Origin: Hyphomicrobiales bacterium
GTDB lineage: Bacteria; Pseudomonadota; Alphaproteobacteria; Rhizobiales; Rhizobiaceae
Reading direction: 5' to 3'
Length of the DNA: 64,000 nt
Assembly (NCBI GenBank): GCA_900468805.1
Contig: UEIF01000005.1
Span: 1-64,000 of the forward strand
Part shown: piece by piece, positions 50,888 to 61,001 of the stretch
How the letters are laid out: each line of letters opens with the position of its first letter
Position numbering within the stretch: the stretch's first letter is position 1
Program-made: the position numbers and the translations under genes
The notes under the pieces: model-generated
Told to the model about the DNA's origin: nothing
The model's database searches: none
Seen by the model: the letters and a program-made list of their open reading frames with translations, nothing else

Positions 50888-51809
50888 TCACACGGAAACG
50901 TCCCTGGGCCTCCGCGGAACCGGGCGAAACATGTGCTTACGAATGGCCTTCTCCAAGTCGATCAATCCGTGCGGCAGTCCGCCGCGATGAGGGTACATCA
51001 AATGAAATCCCGCCACGGGGCATCGCCATTCCGGCATGACGAGGCAGAGAGTGCCCTTCTCGAGCTGCGCGGCCACGAATCCGGTCGCCAGAAGCGCTAT
51101 TCCACACCCCGCGGCTGCAAATTGGCGGGCAGCGATCGCGCTTTCGACGGTGAGATTTGGAGCGTTGTCGATCCGCACCGTCTCGCCACTCCGGGTGAGT
51201 AACCAAGGCAGGGCTGCGCCCGATCTCGGTCGACGGATGACAATGCGGTCACGGTCCAGATCGTGGGGATGGGCAAGCTGGTCACGGCCGGCCAAATAAG
51301 CTTGTGACGTTACGAGGGTCAATTGATCCTCCTGGCTCAGGCGCCGCGCGATCATGTCCCGTTCGAGCAGATCACCGCGCCGGATTACCGCGTCGTAGCG
51401 GCGGGTCACCGAGCTTATCCTCAACGAAGATTTCAAGTGCAAAGTCGGGGTGGGCGCTTTGGAAACTCGAAAGCACCGGGGCTATCAGCAACTCCATCGC
51501 AATCGTCGATACGCTGATGCGCGCGCGTCCCGTCAAGCGGCTGTCGTGTTGCGACACAAGCCTTTCAGCGTTTGTGAGTTGCTCAAAGGCAGGCCTTACC
51601 TGCCGCACGAGCGCCTCTCCCGCCTCTGTAAGTGCAACGCTGCGGGTCGTACGGACAAACAGCCGAACCATGAGCCGCTTCTCTAGTCGTCTGATCGATT
51701 GGCTTACGGCAGAGGCCGTCACACCAAGGCGAACCGCGGCTGGCGCGAAGCGGCCCTCTTCCGCCACAGCAAGGAAGACGTTGAGTTCCGCAATTTCTCC
51801 GGCGCGCAT
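50888..51809 (-). pseudogene. LysR family regulator, frameshifted
   Basis: The N-terminal part (from 51809) is a good LysR HTH: AELNVFLAVAEEGRFAPAAV, RLGVTASAVSQSIRRLEKRL, VRLFVRTTRSVALTEAGEAL. After LEIFVEDKL near 51400 the frame must change to continue with SSVTRRYDAVIRRGDLLERD and the rest of the effector domain (GKGAALPWLLTR-like region, AARQFAAAGCGIALLATGFV) to the stop at 50888. One base change would restore a protein of about 305 residues. Either the gene died recently or the base is a sequencing error. It diverges from a metallo-hydrolase gene it would have controlled. Confidence 0.82.
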
Positions 51810-51897: not shown

Positions 51898-52782
51898 ATG
51901 ACCAAACCTCAGTTCTATTCAATCGGAGATGCGCGGGTCGCATGCGTGGTGGACACCGTGCTGGATTCCTTCACTCTGCAACAATTGTTACCGGATTTGC
52001 ACGATGACGATCGACAACTGGCGGAAGAGATGCCCAAAACCATGGCGCCAGATGGACGCCGAGTGCGCCTGAGCGTGCACAGCTGGGTTATCCAGTATCG
52101 CGGAAAGACTATTTTGGTCGACACCGGCGCAGGGAATGACAAGGACCGTCCGAATGCGCGGTATTTCGACCATATTCGAACTTCCTATCTCGCTCGGCTG
52201 GCGGATGTAGGAGTCTCGCCACACGACGTCGACTATGTCCTTCACACGCATCTCCACGTGGATCACGTGGGATGGAATACTATGCTGATCGATGGGCGAT
52301 GTACGCCAACTTTCCCAAACGCGCGATTTATCTTTTCTGCGAAGGAATACGCCTACTTCACCGACCCAGCTAACTTGAACGATCGGAATCGAACCAGTTT
52401 TCAGGTTCAGGAAGACAGCGTGAGGCCGATCGTGGATGCAGGCATGGTCGACATGATTGAGGTGACTGGGGACGAGGTCATCCCTGGCTTCTCCTTCCAT
52501 CCGACGCCTGGCCACACCATGCACCACGCTTCAATTGTTCTCGAGAGCGCAGGCGTCAGAGCACTTTTTGCCGGCGATCTCCTTCATCACCCGATACAGA
52601 TCAGAAAGCCCGAACTGCTATCAGTGTTTGATCCGGAACGTCAGAAGACCGTGGAATCGCGAAGGTGGGCACTGGAATATGCGGCGGACCATAAAGCGAC
52701 GTGGTTTAGCTCGCATATTCCGGAGCCTTCAGCAGGCCGTATTGTTCGTGCGGGCGAGCAATACAGCTGGCACTTCGAATGA
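51898..52782 (+). CDS. Cytoplasmic metallo-beta-lactamase-fold hydrolase
   Basis: A 294-residue protein with no signal peptide. AAAGGAGAAGAC precedes ATG 51898. All zinc ligands of the fold are present: VDTGAGNDKDRPNARYFDHI, HxHxDH in VLHTHLHVDHVGWNTM, the histidine of FHPTPGHTMHHASIV, the bridging Asp in ALFAGDLLHHPI and a late SSHIPEP. The pattern resembles quorum-quenching lactonase relatives and other cytoplasmic esterases, and the substrate is unknown. It diverges from the frameshifted LysR gene by 88 bases. It is related in fold, but not closely in sequence, to the exported enzyme at 23.8 kb. Confidence 0.85.
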   Translation: MTKPQFYSIGDARVACVVDTVLDSFTLQQLLPDLHDDDRQLAEEMPKTMAPDGRRVRLSVHSWVIQYRGKTILVDTGAGNDKDRPNARYFDHIRTSYLARLADVGVSPHDVDYVLHTHLHVDHVGWNTMLIDGRCTPTFPNARFIFSAKEYAYFTDPANLNDRNRTSFQVQEDSVRPIVDAGMVDMIEVTGDEVIPGFSFHPTPGHTMHHASIVLESAGVRALFAGDLLHHPIQIRKPELLSVFDPERQKTVESRRWALEYAADHKATWFSSHIPEPSAGRIVRAGEQYSWHFE

Positions 52783-53190
52783 CCCGGCAACCGACGTTCG
52801 AGACCGGTTCGCTCACGCAAGCGCTCTTCGTCGAGAATACTGGCATTATTGGGACACAATCGATTTGGGCATGCGCGCTGGAAGATCCTCAGCCATCTGG
52901 CGACACCACAAGCCAATGTCAATTCGACCTGTTGGAAACCGCCCGTTCCCGCGGCAAAGGCCTTTTCCACCCATCCATGGCCGATCGGTAGCATGTGGGG
53001 GAGGTCGGCCGCGCTGCAATTCCCCAAACCATTCGTCGTGCCAGCGATGCGTGGTTCCGTCACACCCGATCTGCCGGGCGCAACTGAAGCTCCCGGTCGA
53101 GATGTAGGCGCGCGCTAGGACCAACGTCTGGTCAAACAATCTGAGCGCTATTGTCGATGACGCCCGCGCAGGAAGAGAGCGGGCGGCAAA
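52783..53190. other. Stretch without a recognisable gene
   Basis: Two overlapping minus-strand open frames (52641-53063 and 52846-53208) cover this stretch, but neither has a motif I recognise. One of them runs back through the 3' end of the metallo-hydrolase gene on the other strand. It may hold a decayed gene. I see no terminator. Confidence 0.35.
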
Positions 53191-53194
53191 TAAA

Positions 53195-53257
53195 TGTGCA
53201 TTATACACTTTTTTATTGACGGGCCTGCCTCATCGCTATTATGTGCACTCTACACAT
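53195..53257 (+). promoter_or_regulatory. Promoter with two MarR-type operators
   Basis: Two copies of the same palindrome lie 47 bases apart: TGTGCATTATACACT (53195-53209) and ATGTGCACTCTACACAT (53241-53257). Between them is TTGACG (53216-53221), with TATTAT or TTATGT 15-17 bases on, a plausible sigma-70 promoter. One operator sits just upstream of the -35 and the other over the -10. The downstream gene is the MFS transporter at 53333. The same palindrome flanks the marR/monooxygenase promoter 6 kb away. Confidence 0.7.
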
Positions 53258-53332
53258 TAGTGATGGCGACCCCCCGCGCAGCGGATTTGGTGCGCCGCGA
53301 CGAATGTGCGGTAAATAGCGGGGAATCGCGAG

Positions 53333-54595
53333 ATGGACGTCGATGCATCCACAGTCGGGAACGATGCGGCAACGCCGCGACTAAATCGGCGCCGGATGCT
53401 GCCAGTTTTTCTCAGCGTCAGCCTTTATGCCGCAAGTGCAGCGGCCGTGTTACCAATTTTGCCATTCTACCTCAAGGAAATGGGCGGAACGCCGCTCGTT
53501 TTCGGTATCGTTATCGCTACGGAAGCGCTCACCCAGTTTGTGGCAGGACCACTTGTCGGTCAGCTTTCAGATCAGTTGGGACGTAAGAAAATATTGCTGG
53601 CAACGCAGGCTGCTGCTTTTACGAGCTTTCTGTTGCTTGTGCTGGCAAGGGCGGTGTTTCCCCTTCTGTTGGCGCGCATGCTGTTCGGCTTTACGGGGGG
53701 AACGTTCACCGCTGCCGCCGCGTACGCCGCAGACCATAGTTGCCCGGCCAACCGTCGGCAGGCTATAGGCATTCTTAATGCAGCGGTCGGGCTGGGAGGT
53801 ATCGTCGGGGCGGGCCTATCCGGTTATCTGTCCAGCATCTCCCTGACTGTTCCGATTTATGCCGCCATGGCTCTTTCCGCGGCGAGCCTCGTCGTGACAG
53901 CTGCCTGGATAAGGGGAGGCCACGCAACATCCCACGGCTTTGACGTGTCACCCCAGAACGAAGTTTCCCGCGATAAGGTCTCGTTCAGATCGATCGTCAG
54001 TTCTCCCTTGATCCGGGTGCTTGTGATCGTGCTGCTCTGCTACTTTTTTGCCTATGGCATGTATGGCTCTCAGATCGCCAACTATCTTCAAGCGACACTT
54101 ATCAGCGAAGGCAATTCGTTTGGGCCGCGCGAGCTTGGCTACATAATGGCCGCGGACGGTGCGATCAACATCATTGTCCAGTTGTTCCTGCTGCAATGGC
54201 TCGGTCGGCACTTCACCGAACGTCGGCTGATCGTTCTCATATGCGCCATTGTGGCCCTCGGCTACATTACAGTTGGCTTTGCGGCGACCCTCCCGGTTAT
54301 CGTCTTCGCCATCCTTTGCGTAAGTGTCGGTGATGCGTTGGCGCGCCCCACCTTTATCTCGGCGCTCTCCGTCCATGCCCCGCGCGAACGTCAAGGAATT
54401 GTGTTGGGAACTGCCCAGTCCTTGCTTGCTGCCACGGAAGCAGTCTCTCCAATATTAGCCGGCTTTCTCATCGGCCAGGCACTGTACGGTGTTTGGACCG
54501 GCGCAATCGTCGCTTTCGTTGCAATTGCGGCAGCAATTGCCTGGACGAGACTTCCGTCCTCCGACCCGGAGGCAGAGGGGCAGGCGAACTCATAA
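53333..54595 (+). CDS. MFS exporter, TetA-like (DHA1 family), copy 1
   Basis: A 420-residue transporter with 12 predicted membrane segments. After a short polar N-terminus come LPVFLSVSLYAASAAAVLPI, the motif-A loop GPLVGQLSDQLGRKKILLAT and the transport motif ARMLFGFTGGTFTAAAAYAA. RRQAIGILNAAVGLGGIVGA is the antiporter-type motif C region of drug exporters such as TetA. These export hydrophobic or aromatic compounds in exchange for protons. A promoter with two MarR-type operators lies 80-140 bases upstream. A similar protein is encoded at 56.1-57.4 kb. It is followed after 64 bases by a patatin-like gene on the same strand. Confidence 0.88.
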   Translation: MDVDASTVGNDAATPRLNRRRMLPVFLSVSLYAASAAAVLPILPFYLKEMGGTPLVFGIVIATEALTQFVAGPLVGQLSDQLGRKKILLATQAAAFTSFLLLVLARAVFPLLLARMLFGFTGGTFTAAAAYAADHSCPANRRQAIGILNAAVGLGGIVGAGLSGYLSSISLTVPIYAAMALSAASLVVTAAWIRGGHATSHGFDVSPQNEVSRDKVSFRSIVSSPLIRVLVIVLLCYFFAYGMYGSQIANYLQATLISEGNSFGPRELGYIMAADGAINIIVQLFLLQWLGRHFTERRLIVLICAIVALGYITVGFAATLPVIVFAILCVSVGDALARPTFISALSVHAPRERQGIVLGTAQSLLAATEAVSPILAGFLIGQALYGVWTGAIVAFVAIAAAIAWTRLPSSDPEAEGQANS

Positions 54596-54659
54596 GCTAC
54601 ACGGCGGCGTGCAAATGGGCCGCATTCCTCCTTCCACTCGGCTTAAGAGAACCCGCTCA

Positions 54660-55961
54660 ATGACACGTCAGCACATCTCAGAAAGCAGACCCGGCATGAC
54701 CTTGACGAGCGACATGGGGAAGGCTCCCGCTGCGCAGAATGCCCTCTTTCGCATCTTTTCAACGGCGCGGGGTATTCGCTTGGTTATCAAGCGATCGACT
54801 CGGACCTTGATAGTCCTTCTATTCACATTGTTGGTTCTTTCCGGCTGCACAAACACGCGAGAGCGCGCAGTCGACGCACTTGAGGCCGACAAAGCGTCGA
54901 TTGCGGGGTTTGATGAAATCCGGGCCTACCGCTATTCGCCGCGTAACGAAGCGCTTGCAAAGCACCACGACTGGATGGTTAAGACCCCGTCGGCCAGTAA
55001 AAACGTACTGATGCTTTCCGGTGGTGGAGGCAGCGGTGCTTTCAGTGTCGGCGTGCTCGCCGGGTGGACCGCGACGAACAAGCGCCCCCATTTTGATGGC
55101 GTAACCGGTGTCAGCACAGGCGCCTTGATAGCGCCTTACGCTTTTCTCGGAACCGCTTACGACAAGACCCTAGTACACCTTTTTACGAGCGGTATTGCCC
55201 ATGAGCTTGTGGCGTTCAACGGCCCTTTCGGGGTATTCGGCTCAAGCCTACTTAAGTCGGGGCCGCTCAAAAGATATGTCGAGCGCTCCATAACGCCCGA
55301 CGTCCTCATCAAGATTGCCGCTGAACACCGCAACGGTCGACGGCTGTTTGTTCTGACGACAAACCTCGATACCCAGCGTGGCGTTATCTGGAACATGGGC
55401 GCCATTGCTGCGAGCGGAAATCCCGATGCCCTGGAACTGTTTCGAGATATAATCGTCGCTTCGGCAAGTGTGCCAGGCGTCTTTCCTCCTGTCATGATCC
55501 AGGCGACGTCAAACGGACGGCAGTTTCAGGAACTGCACTCGGACGGAGGATCAACTTCCCAAATCCTGACACCACCTCTTCTCGTTGAAAACGCGCTCTT
55601 TTCCGAGGGGCATGCTCAAAAAAAGATCAATCTGTACGTGATCGTCAATAACGCGCTCATCCCCGAGTTCAATGTCACACCTAACAGGGCAGTGTCGTCA
55701 CTTGGCCGAGCATATTCGACCTTCCTAAAGTCTCAGGCTCAAAGCGAATTGGCCGCGCTATACAACTACGCTCGCCGCACGGGAGCAAATTTCAATGTCG
55801 CATCGATCGAGGTGCAGATTCCCTATTCGATGCTTAATCCGCTCGACAGGAATTACATGCAGGCCGTGTACAGGCTTGGCTTTGAGCAGACGACTTCCGG
55901 GGCATTGTGGAAGAATAAGCCCGCCTTTCCGTTGAAATTATTGCAGCCTGTTGCGCGCTGA
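54660..55961 (+). CDS. Patatin-like phospholipase lipoprotein
   Basis: From ATG 54660 the protein has 433 residues. A later TTG at 54780 would give a more normal lipoprotein signal (VIKRSTRTLIVLLFTLLVLS-GC), since the lipobox Cys is at residue 63 of the long form. The patatin domain has the oxyanion loop MLSGGGGSGAFSVGVLAGW, the nucleophile elbow GVSTG in FDGVTGVSTGALIAPYAFLG, and the catalytic Asp in ELHSDGGSTSQIL. It would be a membrane-anchored serine esterase or phospholipase in the envelope. It sits between two MFS exporters, apparently in the same transcription unit. Its role there is unknown. Confidence 0.85.
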   Translation: MTRQHISESRPGMTLTSDMGKAPAAQNALFRIFSTARGIRLVIKRSTRTLIVLLFTLLVLSGCTNTRERAVDALEADKASIAGFDEIRAYRYSPRNEALAKHHDWMVKTPSASKNVLMLSGGGGSGAFSVGVLAGWTATNKRPHFDGVTGVSTGALIAPYAFLGTAYDKTLVHLFTSGIAHELVAFNGPFGVFGSSLLKSGPLKRYVERSITPDVLIKIAAEHRNGRRLFVLTTNLDTQRGVIWNMGAIAASGNPDALELFRDIIVASASVPGVFPPVMIQATSNGRQFQELHSDGGSTSQILTPPLLVENALFSEGHAQKKINLYVIVNNALIPEFNVTPNRAVSSLGRAYSTFLKSQAQSELAALYNYARRTGANFNVASIEVQIPYSMLNPLDRNYMQAVYRLGFEQTTSGALWKNKPAFPLKLLQPVAR

Positions 55962-56119
55962 TTTTATCTTCGAGAGGAGCGAGCCATCGTCGTCAGCCCC
56001 TGAGATGGACCTTCGTCAAATGATCACTGATGGGAACCTCAAATGTGGTCCCGCACCCCTTACCCGACATTTGCCTCCTTCTTCAGAGGAGTGAGTGACA
56101 GATTAGAAGCGAGCCTCCA

Positions 56120-57442
56120 ATGACAGACGAAACTGATGTACACCCCGCACGGAAGAAAGTGCCGAGTCTGCTCCCGATCTTCGCGATCGTTGTCGTAGAT
56201 ACCGCGAGTGCAGGTCTCATCCTGCCTCTTCTACCGTTCTACGCACAGGTTTTTGGCGCATCGCCACTGATCATCGGTTTCCTCTTTGCAAGCTTTGCCA
56301 TCTGCGAATTTATTGCTGGGCCCATCCTAGGGAACGCTTCCGACAGATTGGGGCGCAAGCGGTTGCTTTTGGTCAGCCAGATCGGTACTTGCGCAAGCTT
56401 CCTTTTGCTCGCCATGGCCACCGACCTCTTCTTCGTTTTCCTGGCCCGCATCCTCGCTGGGTTGTCGGCGGGTAACGTTGCCATAGCGATCGCTTACGTC
56501 GCAGACAAAAGCGAAGCTAAGGGTCGCCGGCAAGCGATCGGGTTGGTGAGCGCGGCGATGGGTCTAGGCACCATGGTTGGTCCAGCTCTTGGTGGAGCAC
56601 TCGCCCCGATCGGACTTGCAGTGCCATTCCTGCTTGCTGCGGGGCTTTCCCTTGCCAGCATCGTAACGACATCCACTTTCCTTCCTGCGGATGATCGAAG
56701 TTCATTTGGCGTCCGATCCGATAGCCGTGTCTTCAGAAAAGGAAAACATCCGAGCAACCAAGCACGGTGTGGCAAACAGACCCTCGACGACGCGACCGCT
56801 GCGGCACCGTTCTCTTTGACGAAATTTCTTCGCGGGATCGCTGATCTAATCGCCCTTCCCAATGCCAAGGCACTTCTAACAGCACTTGCCATACTATACC
56901 TCGCGTTCAGCCTGTTCGCATCACAACTCGCGCTCGTGCTTCATGCCCGATACCAGTGGGGTGGCGAGCCATTTGGCCCGACCGAGATCGGGCTCCTGTT
57001 CACCGCGGCTGGCGGGACAAACATTTTGGTTCAAGTTGTCATAGTGCGCGCCATCAGGACGACGTTCCACGAACGAACGCTGGCCGCAGCGTCGTTTGCG
57101 TTGCTCGCGGTCGGTTTCGCCCTCATCGGTTTCGGCGATACGATTCCTGGCCTGGCCTTAGGCGTCTTTACAGCCGCGTCGGGCTTGGCGCTGGCAAGGC
57201 CGACACTCGTCGCCGCCTTGACCTTAATTGTGCCCGCCGGCTCTCAGGGTGTCGCGATGGGTATGGCGCAATCGCTTGCTTCCCTCATTAACATCATCGG
57301 GCCGATCGCCGGCGGACTTTTGATCCAGCAACAAAATTTCATCGGCTGGGCCTTGGTCTTGGTCGCGCTCGCCTTAACGGGTTTTGCCACAGTCGGATTG
57401 CTTACTATTCTCCCAACGAAGCCCAATCCAACAGAAAGATAA
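56120..57442 (+). CDS. MFS exporter, TetA-like (DHA1 family), copy 2
   Basis: A 440-residue, 12-segment transporter related to copy 1. It has LLPIFAIVVVDTASAGLILP, motif A GPILGNASDRLGRKRLLLVS, ARILAGLSAGNVAIAIAYVA and RRQAIGLVSAAMGLGTMVGP. A longer central loop (residues about 195-230, rich in Arg/Lys) separates the halves. Copies 1 and 2 align over most of their length and probably arose by duplication. The gene starts 158 bases after the patatin gene, with GCGAGCC upstream. No MarR-type operator is seen directly before it, so it is probably read from the promoter at 53.2 kb or from a weak local one. Confidence 0.87.
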   Translation: MTDETDVHPARKKVPSLLPIFAIVVVDTASAGLILPLLPFYAQVFGASPLIIGFLFASFAICEFIAGPILGNASDRLGRKRLLLVSQIGTCASFLLLAMATDLFFVFLARILAGLSAGNVAIAIAYVADKSEAKGRRQAIGLVSAAMGLGTMVGPALGGALAPIGLAVPFLLAAGLSLASIVTTSTFLPADDRSSFGVRSDSRVFRKGKHPSNQARCGKQTLDDATAAAPFSLTKFLRGIADLIALPNAKALLTALAILYLAFSLFASQLALVLHARYQWGGEPFGPTEIGLLFTAAGGTNILVQVVIVRAIRTTFHERTLAAASFALLAVGFALIGFGDTIPGLALGVFTAASGLALARPTLVAALTLIVPAGSQGVAMGMAQSLASLINIIGPIAGGLLIQQQNFIGWALVLVALALTGFATVGLLTILPTKPNPTER

Positions 57443-57527
57443 ATGCTCACGACGAGCTCAAGGCGCAGACCTGTGCGCTGAGCACGACGGAGCCGCATCG
57501 TTTTTTAGCCATCCACAGGAGAACGAA

Positions 57528-58394
57528 ATGTCACGTCCCCGCCTAGGCTCGACAATCCAACTGGGTTGTAGGCCAATCGCATCCGCCCTTCTTTCATTGT
57601 CGCTGTTATCGCTTCTAGGGTGCGCGGCTGTACCGCTCGAACAGGCGAATTCTCTGGCGTCCTACGACGGTTTGGCATCGAACAACGGGCTATTGACGAA
57701 GGCGAACTACAAGGTCTCTTCAGGGGACCTTGGCGCAGCTAGAACAATTTACATCGAGCCAACGAAGGTGTCGGCCGCAGCAGCGCTTTCTATAAAGAAA
57801 TCTTCCGACCGTGCCTTGGTGGCGAATGTGATCAGCCGTGCACTCTGCATCGGTGTCAGCGATCGTTTCGAAGTTGTAAGTACGAAGGAGGATGCAGACC
57901 TTGTTGTTCACGCAACCATCACCCAAATCGTCCCGACCAACGCTACAATGGCCGGTCTGTCTACAGCTGCGTCGCTCGGAGCCAGCGTCTTTTCCTCCGT
58001 CCCCGTTCCGAGGTTGCCCATGGGGCTTGGAGGCCTTTCGGTGGAGGCCGAAGCCACGATGCGAGACGGCAAGCAGGCGGGAGCGATGGTATGGGCCAAA
58101 GGAACGAACTTCGTGACCACCAATGCACGAATTTCACAGATTGGAGACGCCTATTCACTTGCGGCGAGCTTCGGCGACGATTTTTCCAAAATGCTTGTCA
58201 ACGGCAAGACGCCTTTCAAGGGGCTACCCAAAATCCCGTCCGGGCAGAGAATCAAGTCAGGTTTTGGCGGCAAACCGAAATACCCTGCTTGCGAGATTTT
58301 TGGCCGCTCACCCGGTCTGAAGGACTTCGCGGCCTCACAGGTAGGGATGCCTCCTTCCTGGACCGACAAACAGCGTCCGACAGGTGGTCATTAG
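57528..58394 (+). CDS. DUF3313 family lipoprotein
   Basis: A 288-residue lipoprotein. ATG 57528 follows AGGAGAACGAA. The signal segment (ASALLSLSLLSLLGC) ends in a lipobox with Cys at about residue 31. The mature part contains ANSLASYDGLASNNGLLTKA, followed by ARTIYIEPTKVSAAAA, TKEDADLVVHATITQIVPTN and RDGKQAGAMVWAKGTNF. This matches the DUF3313 pattern, whose function is unknown. It is the last gene of the MFS-patatin-MFS-lipoprotein run. A helper role at the outer membrane for the exporters is conceivable but unproven. Confidence 0.8.
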   Translation: MSRPRLGSTIQLGCRPIASALLSLSLLSLLGCAAVPLEQANSLASYDGLASNNGLLTKANYKVSSGDLGAARTIYIEPTKVSAAAALSIKKSSDRALVANVISRALCIGVSDRFEVVSTKEDADLVVHATITQIVPTNATMAGLSTAASLGASVFSSVPVPRLPMGLGGLSVEAEATMRDGKQAGAMVWAKGTNFVTTNARISQIGDAYSLAASFGDDFSKMLVNGKTPFKGLPKIPSGQRIKSGFGGKPKYPACEIFGRSPGLKDFAASQVGMPPSWTDKQRPTGGH

Positions 58395-58687
58395 AGGCAC
58401 CAATGAGAATCACTTGGCGCCGCCGCCCGGAGCTTTATTTGACAGCTCTCGTGGGCGGACGCCAATGCGGCTAGCGTCCGACCCATTGCGCAACAAAGCA
58501 GGGTTGTTCCTCACATGATGCTTGAGGCGAACGCTCGGACCTCGTTCCGAAACATCATCATTCTGAGGGACAGCCACCTTCTCGGCTATGTGAGGAGCGC
58601 CGACCCATTACGGCATCTAGGCCCGACCGACAGCGTCCATTGGGCCTAGTGCGCCCCGATTTAAACTGCCAATACATGGCGTCGCTT

Positions 58688-59173
58688 CTAGGCTTCTTGC
58701 GCAGGCGTGGCGGCAATGCTGTCGGCGAACATCCGCATGAGGCGGAGAAGGTCGTCGAAATCTTCACGGGTCCAGTCTTTAAGTAGCGATAAAGCCATCT
58801 TTTCGCGTGCCCTGTCGAGAGCGTCAGTCGCCGCCTTCCCTTTCGCCGTTATGGCCGCTTCTCGCACTCTTTTGTCTGTTGGAAGGGGCCGGCGTTCGAC
58901 GAGCCCGAGTTGCTCGAGACGCGCTACTTGGCGACTGACGGTCGTATAGTCACGCCCTATGCCATCGGCAAGTTCAACAACTCCGATCGGTCCGCGCCGC
59001 TCTATACCGACGAGGAGCGGAAACAAAGCACGCTCGAGCGTAAGGCCTGCCAATTCCAGCAACTGCGCATCCCTTTCCGGGCGGTTCATCAGCCCGGCAA
59101 TATCCATGAGAGAACGATGGAGCTCGGGCAGGGATTTCAAGATATGTGTATTTTGCACTTTTGTTGTTGACAC
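58688..59173 (-). CDS. MarR family transcriptional regulator
   Basis: A 161-residue winged-helix regulator. GTG 59173 is chosen because AGGAGA lies about ten bases upstream; TTG 59179 is too close to that site. The core reads LERALFPLLVGIERRGPIGV, VELADGIGRDYTTVSRQVAR, LEQLGLVERRPLPTDKRVRE and AAITAKGKAATDALDRAREK, with the MarR wing DKR. It diverges from a FAD monooxygenase gene. A 17-bp near-perfect palindrome lies between the two starts and another inside its own first codons. The same palindrome occurs twice before the MFS gene 6 kb away. It probably represses both, with release by a phenolic or aromatic ligand. Confidence 0.9.
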   Translation of the reverse strand: MSTTKVQNTHILKSLPELHRSLMDIAGLMNRPERDAQLLELAGLTLERALFPLLVGIERRGPIGVVELADGIGRDYTTVSRQVARLEQLGLVERRPLPTDKRVREAAITAKGKAATDALDRAREKMALSLLKDWTREDFDDLLRLMRMFADSIAATPAQEA

Positions 59174-59210
59174 GACCAACGTCTCCTGATGATATGTGCA
59201 TTATACACAT
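59144..59210. promoter_or_regulatory. Two MarR-type operators between marR and the monooxygenase
   Basis: ATGTGCATTATACACAT (59194-59210) is a near-perfect 17-bp palindrome 11 bases upstream of the monooxygenase ATG. ATGTGTATTTTGCACTT (59144-59160) lies 50 bases away, within the first codons of marR. The pair has nearly the same spacing as the two copies at 53.2 kb (47 bases). These would allow autoregulation and control of the monooxygenase. Confidence 0.72.
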
Positions 59211-59221
59211 TGGAGGCAAAA

Positions 59222-60697
59222 ATGAAAGTTGATAGCGTGATCGACGTTTTGATCTGCGGCGCGGGCGCTGCCGGCCTTACGCTTGCCATTGACCTCGCTC
59301 GGCGCGGCGTGGCGTTCCGCCTCGTCGAGAAAATGAACCAGCCATTCTCGGGCTCGCGCGGCAAGGGCATTCAACCGAGAACCCAGGAAGTCTTCGAGGA
59401 CCTGGCGATCATCGATCGTATTGTCGCGGCAGGTGGTACCTATCCGCGGATGCGCGAATATCGGGACGATGGCACGTTCTTGGACAAGGACATGGGAGAG
59501 CGAGTCGATCCGACACCCGCGGAGCCCTATCAAATCGCTCTGATGGTGCCGCAATTTCTTACGGAGAAGGTGATGCGTGAGCGGCTCGCCGAACTCGGAC
59601 ATCACGTCGAGTTCGGACTCGAGCTTGTTGCCTTCGAACAGGACGAGGAATGTGTAACCGCCCGGCTTGCTGGACCATCCGGTCACGAGGTCGTTCGCTG
59701 CGAATATCTTGTTGGGGCAGACGGCGGCGGAAGTTTCGTAAGACGTTCGCTTGGTGTGGACTTCCCTGGGAAAACACTTGGTGCACGTGCGCTGGTAGCC
59801 GATGTCTCGCTGTCGGGACTCGACCGTCAGGCCTGGCACCAGTTCAACAGCGGAGATATGCAACGAATGTTTTCAGTTTGCCCGCTCGCGGGAACTGAAC
59901 TTTTTCAGATCCAAGCACCGATCCCGCCGGAGGACGAGGTCAACTTGACCGCCCAAGCGCTGCAACAAATGATCACCGAAAAGACGGGCCGAAGCGACAT
60001 CAAGGTGCAGTCGGTATCCTGGGCGTCCGCCTATACGATGAATGCTCGCCTTGCAGAGCGTTACCGGGTTGGGCGGGTGTTTCTTGTTGGCGATTCTGCT
60101 CACGTCCATCCGCCGACAGGGGGCCAGGGCCTCAACACAAGCGTACAAGACGCCTATAATCTCGGGTGGAAGATAGCGGCAGTGCTTGGCGGCGCGGCGG
60201 ACCAATTGCTTGATACCTATGAGGAAGAGCGTCGCCCCGTCGCTGAAGCGATGCTCGGGCTCGCGACAGGTTTGCTCGAGGCAGCGAAACGAGGAGGAAT
60301 GCAGCGGGGCCGAGAGGTGCGCCAACTGGATATAGGATATCGAGGGTCATCGCTGTCGTTCAATCCACCCGGCAGAGACGCAATTCTGCTCGCAGGAGAT
60401 CGGGCGCCCGATGCGCCGGTGCGGGGTGCCGCAGGATCTACCCGTCGCCTCTTCGACCTGTTCCAAGGGCCCCACTGGACCCTGATTGGCTATGAAACGG
60501 TGGGTGACGTGATAACCGGTCAGAAGGGCCTTCGCATCCATCGGATCGGTAACGGATGCGAACTGGAAGATGACAAGGCCCACTTCCGTGATGCTTACGG
60601 ACTCGCATCGGGCGAATGGGTGCTCGTTCGGCCTGATGGATATGTCGGGGCGATCGTGGCTTCCGGCGACACTGGACAACTACAATGGGCCTTTTGA
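59222..60697 (+). CDS. FAD-dependent aromatic monooxygenase (PheA/TfdB/Rox-like)
   Basis: A 491-residue class A flavoprotein monooxygenase. ATG 59222 follows TTGGAGG. It has the N-terminal FAD motif DVLICGAGAAGLTLAIDLAR, then FSGSRGKGIQPRTQEVFEDL (typical of the phenol/rifampicin group) and the DG motif CEYLVGADGGGSFVRRSLGV. The second FAD motif is GDSAHVHPPTGGQGLNTSVQ with NLGWKIAAVLGG. The C-terminal thioredoxin-like tail ends REAL-like with WVLVRPDGYVGAIV. Such enzymes hydroxylate phenols or antibiotics such as rifampicin with NAD(P)H and oxygen. Divergent marR and shared operators make it part of the MFS regulon. Confidence 0.88.
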   Translation: MKVDSVIDVLICGAGAAGLTLAIDLARRGVAFRLVEKMNQPFSGSRGKGIQPRTQEVFEDLAIIDRIVAAGGTYPRMREYRDDGTFLDKDMGERVDPTPAEPYQIALMVPQFLTEKVMRERLAELGHHVEFGLELVAFEQDEECVTARLAGPSGHEVVRCEYLVGADGGGSFVRRSLGVDFPGKTLGARALVADVSLSGLDRQAWHQFNSGDMQRMFSVCPLAGTELFQIQAPIPPEDEVNLTAQALQQMITEKTGRSDIKVQSVSWASAYTMNARLAERYRVGRVFLVGDSAHVHPPTGGQGLNTSVQDAYNLGWKIAAVLGGAADQLLDTYEEERRPVAEAMLGLATGLLEAAKRGGMQRGREVRQLDIGYRGSSLSFNPPGRDAILLAGDRAPDAPVRGAAGSTRRLFDLFQGPHWTLIGYETVGDVITGQKGLRIHRIGNGCELEDDKAHFRDAYGLASGEWVLVRPDGYVGAIVASGDTGQLQWAF

Positions 60698-61001
60698 AGA
60701 AGCGCGGCTGACAAGGGCGGACTGTTTTGGGCCCGACCTGAACGGCCCGCCGACGAAAGCCCCTTGCGTCCTCAGCGATTGCGAGATTGGGGTGACGCGA
60801 TCGCTTGAACACGCGGTGTCTGATGAATTGTGGTGAATGTCCAGTCCTGCGACTTCCGCACATAACCACACTGAGAGACAGGGGCGTGAGCGGGCCTGGT
60901 CTGCCATTTGATTTTGATGGCGGGTCGACGGCTCGGTAGAGTATCCGCCTTCACGTCACAGGCTTTGTGGGAAGCCTTGATGCGGACCAGTACCAAGTCG
61001 C
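60698..61001. other. Intergenic, no gene seen
   Basis: These 304 bases lie between the convergent 3' ends of the monooxygenase gene (+) and the livF-type gene (-). Short frames on both strands lack recognisable motifs and ribosome sites. A terminator is expected here but none is clear by eye. Confidence 0.4.

Follow-up and report, generated by a model that had tools for sequence, protein, structure and literature searches.

The window analyzed here is the whole stretch of 64,000 nucleotides at positions 1 to 64,000 of contig UEIF01000005.1 from a Hyphomicrobiales bacterium, and the subject of this work is a set of four palindromic sites that precede two groups of genes in it. The first group lies on the plus strand and comprises the exporter MFS1 (53333-54595), a patatin-like phospholipase (54657-55961), the exporter MFS2 (56120-57442) and a DUF3313 protein (57528-58394). 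All four were assigned by family profiles, the two exporters being distantly TetA-like, while the phospholipase and the DUF3313 protein are probable lipoproteins as judged by eye from their lipoprotein signals. The second group consists of marR on the minus strand (58688-59179; start codon uncertain), which encodes a MarR regulator referred to as B type and was assigned by sequence and Pfam, and a divergent gene for a class A FAD monooxygenase of the PRK06184 subfamily on the plus strand (59222-60697). We consider it likely that the four sites make up two double MarR operators and that exporter and monooxygenase are co-induced, with the window's own MarR as the likeliest regulator and cross-talk from a second MarR of the same genome, encoded at C49, as a possibility.

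The pattern ATGTGCATTATACACAT, searched with up to three mismatches, matched at 53194-53210 (putative operator A1, ATGTGCATTATACACTT, one mismatch), 53241-53257 (putative operator A2, ATGTGCACTCTACACAT, two mismatches), 59144-59160 on the minus strand (putative operator B1, three mismatches) and 59194-59210 (putative operator B2, an exact site), the last of these being readable on the minus strand as well with three mismatches. Over 100 shuffled versions of the window, matches averaged 0.09 with a maximum of 2, short of the 5 rows observed. The sites start 47 bases apart in the exporter pair and 50 bases apart in the marR/monooxygenase pair, so that the two pairs described in the initial annotation were recovered, with its first coordinate off by one.

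Each pair encloses a TTGAC(A/G) motif, which we take as a candidate -35 box. TTGACG is found at 53216-53221, downstream of A1, and A2 overlaps the predicted -10 of the exporter promoter; TTGACA is found at 59167-59172, and B2 lies 11 bases 5' of the monooxygenase start. B1 falls within the 5' coding end of marR, in its first codons (VQNTHI), and B2 spells TATAAT on the minus (marR) strand, which makes it a possible -10 for marR. The earlier suggestion that each pair brackets a promoter element agrees with these boxes, the promoter roles themselves being predicted.

The connection between exporter and monooxygenase was found again in relatives. In an even draw of 393 other genomes from the larger family, MFS1 relatives at 82-85% were present in three, and the relative in Agrobacterium bohemicum is at 83%. 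Four relatives (Agrobacterium bohemicum, Aurantimonas endophytica and two more, with G323 and G428 among the four) have one pair before MFS1 and another before the monooxygenase. Alignment of five genomes upstream of MFS1 showed conservation of the site cores, of TTGACG and of site 2, but not of the spacer. The four relatives each hold one MarR of this family (76, 76, 90, and 95% identity to that of the window), the next best being at most 41% identical; a single regulator of both pairs in these genomes, should there be one, is therefore this MarR. Aurantimonas endophytica carries a third pair 17 bases before MFS2. A third pair is present in G428 too, but MFS2 does not follow it, and it may be a remnant.

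More distant MFS1 relatives, of 50-60%, lie downstream of the monooxygenase and in the same direction in 8 of the 116 named loci listed. The same order was found in 11 of 11 family loci (L187-L197), which were selected for MFS1 and whose genomes partly overlap with the named loci. Behind a single pair, a Sinorhizobium meliloti plasmid carries marR / monooxygenase-MFS, an A. cucumeris plasmid monooxygenase-MFS-patatin, and an A. pusense plasmid monooxygenase-ZnADH-MFS-patatin. Since these plasmid versions line the genes up behind one pair, the arrangement in the window can be read as a split form of a compact module. The proposal that exporter, patatin and monooxygenase form one module is upheld by these one-pair rows together with the four relatives in which each of the two promoters has its pair.

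We searched the whole 7.62 Mb genome for further sites. ATGTGCATTATACACAT gave 12 rows, in which one place may count on both strands, compared to 0 for a reversed-pattern control. A looser palindrome gave 14 places, its reversed control 9. Of the 14, 8 fall into four pairs (starts 47, 48, 48, and 50 apart) and the other 6 are single. It is thus the pairing, more than the single site, that constitutes the signal. One of the additional pairs, at C49:40269/40317, lies beside a second MarR gene and a second monooxygenase gene of like sequence (from the text of the open reading frames, ORFs). This second MarR (C49:39822-40292) is 60% identical to the window MarR and has an identical recognition helix. 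The fourth pair, at C57:129377/129425 (C57:129377-129441; L009 7878-7942), is located upstream of genes for a DUF4405 protein and an EamA exporter. By eye the C57 pair resembles a copied marR promoter that has lost the marR start, and pairs like it are present in G117, G118, and G134.

Within the genus, 148 genomes were compared, including the source genome (G000), with a MarR threshold of E up to 1e-30. The strict pair was present in 52 genomes and its reversed control in none. MarR was found in 75 genomes, among them all 52 with a pair, while 0 of the 73 genomes without MarR had a strict pair (Fisher p 4e-22). This co-occurrence is partly trivial because site 1 sits inside marR. Only G000 holds a MarR copy more than 61% identical to that of the window, and the genus-wide kind of MarR is consequently the one like C49. 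Six genus genomes (L227-L232) carry a MarR with 48-50% identity to that of the window and a paired site that has no TTGAC box; this MarR faces a gene that by eye resembles an NADPH-dependent FMN or quinone reductase.

Beyond the genus, a scan of contigs from named genomes, which admitted centre distances of 44-52, returned at least 117 pairs in at least 116 stretches, from alpha-, beta-, and gammaproteobacteria according to their titles. Among the 117 pairs listed, a MarR of this family adjoins 100, the monooxygenase 73, both 70, and neither 14, where adjacency was set by thresholds that miss some true neighbors (in L061 and L129 marR or its place lies just outside or is cut by the locus edge). 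The centres of these listed pairs are 46-52 apart with a mode of 48. In 94 of them the two sites enclose a TTGAC, which in 87 cases is 7 or 8 bases from site 1, compared to 5.7% in shuffled gaps. The recognition helix GRD-Y/H-T/S-T-V/I-SRQ was present in 134 distinct MarRs, one of which has L for R.

Where marR lacks a monooxygenase neighbor, it faces one BLAST cluster resembling zinc-type quinone oxidoreductases at 17 places among the matches listed, a resemblance for which Pfam was run solely on the like gene of L151. The marR of L091 faces a gene that, by ORF text, resembles the DUF4405 gene of the C57 pair. The 14 listed pairs adjoining neither gene comprise two exporter pairs (L115, L148), one of the C57 kind (L065), one with marR at the edge (L151), six beside a DUF6502-like gene (L064, L071, L102, L118, L128, L144, called by Pfam for L064 only and by ORF text for the other five) and four more (L093, L139, L158, L162). 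Near-identical paired operators stand next to the DUF6502-like gene at L064 (6510-6570) and at the five like loci. Another regulator may read the same operator code at the DUF6502-like loci.

Several observations weigh against shared control of the two window promoters by the window MarR. The presumed exporter operon contains one gap of 158 bases and one of 85, which makes the co-transcription of its genes less certain. Exporter site 1 is degenerate in G323, where it begins CGTG in the alignment, as is site 1 on the marR side in G428 (ATATGTATTATGCACCT; alignment). TTGAC is missing from 23 of the 117 listed pairs, and a generic sigma-70 scan flagged neither window pair, its own matches being at chance level; the generic promoter and terminator scans were set aside because their counts equaled those of shuffles. 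Much of the co-occurrence of pair and MarR is built in through the position of site 1 inside marR, an effect that spares only the trans pairs (MFS1, MFS2, DUF4405). Moreover, 23 of the 75 marR genomes of the genus have no strict pair, beside marR or elsewhere. By eye, 22 of these 23 carry a degenerate pair at the same place, and G010 is the sole case without any pair at marR, even a degenerate one; two loose-pattern matches among the 23 fall elsewhere than beside marR. All 23 have the recognition helix GRDYTTVSRQ, GRDHTTVSRQ or GRDHSTVSRQ. The paralogous C49 MarR with its identical recognition helix resides in the same genome as the window, and similar pairs exist in genomes that lack this MarR, six genomes examined holding no MarR above 30% identity.

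The last two points bear on the statement of the initial annotation that the near identity of the sites shows one regulator to control both ends. The shared code stands, but near identity is no proof of a single regulator, since genomes without this MarR family hold similar pairs and since the source genome has four paired promoters and two candidate regulators for one code. It is conceivable, although we think it less probable than not by some distance, that the two MarR paralogues share the operator and that the exporter operon is under joint control or mainly under that of the C49 MarR, which has its own pair and belongs to the genus-wide kind. The exporter pair is, however, also present in the four genomes with a single family MarR, and this MarR is 76-95% identical to that of the window. 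The ends of the sites point the same way. Site 1 ends CACTT in both window pairs, whereas it ends CACAT in the C49 and C57 pairs. In relatives, CACTT was found in 7 of 7 distinct readable module pairs matched, compared to 7 of 101 matches elsewhere. The module tally leaves out repeats: L186 duplicates L115 (same genome), so that three pairs enter the raw count of 10 twice, and a further pair contains an N and could not be read. Some genomes also appear twice among the 101 other matches, and their 7 with CACTT include L109, whose MarR comes closest to the module clade. The variant pattern missed two module pairs, which were taken from the alignment: the G323 exporter pair has CACTT, the marR side of G428 CACCT. 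In the MarR tree, where the bootstrap is not fully settled, five module MarR rows and one Burkholderia row form a clade of six (99/91) apart from the C49 copy, nested in a clade of eight (99/96). The CACTT variant and the MarR clade favor the window's own MarR as the reader of both window pairs, which is the part of the initial statement that the single-MarR relatives also support.

Two further explanations dispense with MarR control of the exporter genes. The exporter pair could be a functionless leftover of a duplicated marR/monooxygenase promoter, considering that all four pairs of the genome share one layout and that the C57 pair by eye retains traces of the marR start region; across five genomes, nevertheless, the exporter pair retains its site cores and TTGACG although its spacer varies, and we find such an origin without function very unlikely. 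Alternatively, the sites could serve an unrelated regulator such as the DUF6502 protein, with the neighborhood of MarR being incidental. This would account for the like pairs at the six DUF6502-like loci and for the lack of a MarR above 30% identity in six such genomes examined. No DUF6502 match was found in the source genome, although none of 14 control genomes matched either, so that its absence is not proven, and a MarR adjoins 100 of the 117 listed pairs; of all the explanations we regard this one as the most improbable. Control of the two promoters through double MarR operators is the interpretation we retain, and the central idea of shared control is probably right, with one double-operator regulon joining exporter and monooxygenase.

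The proteins themselves were compared to known families. The window MarR matches PF01047 with 46.1 bits (cut-off 24.6) and has 17-base palindromes beside its gene at its own promoter, as MarR operators are palindromes of 16-20 bp (PMC10458429). The monooxygenase passes NF004832 (PRK06184 type), a model titled only 'hypothetical protein', with 736.7 bits (cut-off 476). Its top solved-structure matches are rifampin monooxygenases (5kow and 5vqb best) followed by polyketide oxygenases, and like it rifampin monooxygenase and the aromatic polyketide hydroxylases are FAD monooxygenases. A rifampin monooxygenase identity (NF033145) was rejected at 249 bits compared to a cut-off of 800. For both exporters the best NCBIfam match was to the Tet(A)/Tet(B)/Tet(C) pumps (NF012174), yet with 138.3 and 145.3 bits and a cut-off of 475 they are not members, and a tetracycline efflux identity was likewise rejected. 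Rifamycins and tetracyclines, both suggested earlier for susceptibility tests, are left unsupported by these scores. Upstream of the exporter pair, a LysR-type regulator is apparently split over two frames (50888-51809, minus strand; helix-turn-helix part 51372-51809 by Pfam, effector-like part 50888-51442 by eye). Positions 51898-52782 encode a metallo-beta-lactamase-fold protein nearest to AidB-like lactonases (107.8 bits, family cut-off 360).

Two described systems resemble the locus. YetM is an FAD enzyme. In Bacillus subtilis the MarR gene yetL is divergent from the monooxygenase gene yetM, as at the window locus, and the YetL repressor responds to flavonoids (PMC10458429). The host is Gram-positive, and the available part of that source describes no exporter operon under a second operator. 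By likeness of layout, YetL/YetM may serve as the nearest working model. In SydR/SMa2023 of Sinorhizobium meliloti, also a rhizobial MarR system, the region between the divergent genes holds two inverted repeats, but the repeat is TATCGCGATA and sensing requires Cys16 (PMC11633110). The window MarR has no cysteine in its 163 residues, considering the window protein only, which makes thiol redox sensing unlikely for it; SydR was rejected as the same system because of its different repeat and its cysteine sensing.

Between A2 and MFS1 the exporter operon has a conserved leader (53258-53332, plus strand), with 85% mean column identity in the five-genome alignment and indels that disrupt reading frames. 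A candidate stem, CCCYGC/GCRGGG, covers the ribosome-binding site; of its 18 predicted pairs, 1 shows a change in both partners, and several do not form in one or two of the sequences. The leader may act as an RNA element that controls the exporter operon. Rfam gave no match up to E 1 across 52700-60800, and single-strand folds were not unusually stable in four of the five sequences (z -0.80, -0.10, 0.30, and 0.49); the fifth showed a weak excess of stability (z -1.63). A covariance model searched over 297 genomes, an even draw from the larger family, matched up to E 1 in 38 of them. It was strong (E below 1e-16) only in its source sequences (the window, G323, and G428); the next match, at E 0.001, was taken as chance.

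Altogether, these observations suggest how the regulon may work. Site 1 of each pair lies 7-8 bases before the TTGAC taken as the -35 box, and site 2 would cover the -10 region, so that a dimer on each site would close the promoter. In the marR/monooxygenase pair, both sites would moreover overlie the promoter region and first codons of marR itself. A small aromatic or quinone-like compound would bind the repressor and release it from the DNA, whereupon the monooxygenase, marR and the MFS-patatin-MFS-DUF3313 genes, presumably transcribed together, would be switched on at the same time, with the outcome that the compound is oxidized and exported and the envelope adapted. The ligand is presumably phenolic or quinone-like, and the partners of the pair elsewhere (quinone oxidoreductase-like and, by eye, NADPH-FMN-reductase-like) suggest a role in stress from aromatics or quinones.

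Among open-licence PubMed Central papers none was found that deals with this operator or module, and we regard the system as a new regulon of a known kind. A broader idea, which we put forward only speculatively and think rather doubtful as a whole, is that the TGTGYA-N3-TRCACA double operator, with centres 46-52 bp apart and bracketing the -35, is a widespread proteobacterial code for aromatic/quinone detoxification, read by a MarR subfamily whose recognition helix hardly varies; two paralogues would share the code, operons would have been captured by copying of the marR promoter, and DUF6502 would have adopted it. The finding provides a testable regulon and an exact operator code for a MarR/monooxygenase/exporter family that occurs on plasmids of Agrobacterium and Sinorhizobium as well as in many other proteobacteria. 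From it follow predictions of the operons that would respond together and of inducer candidates (plant phenolics, quinones), and it raises the question whether the actions of two paralogous repressors can be distinguished within one cell.

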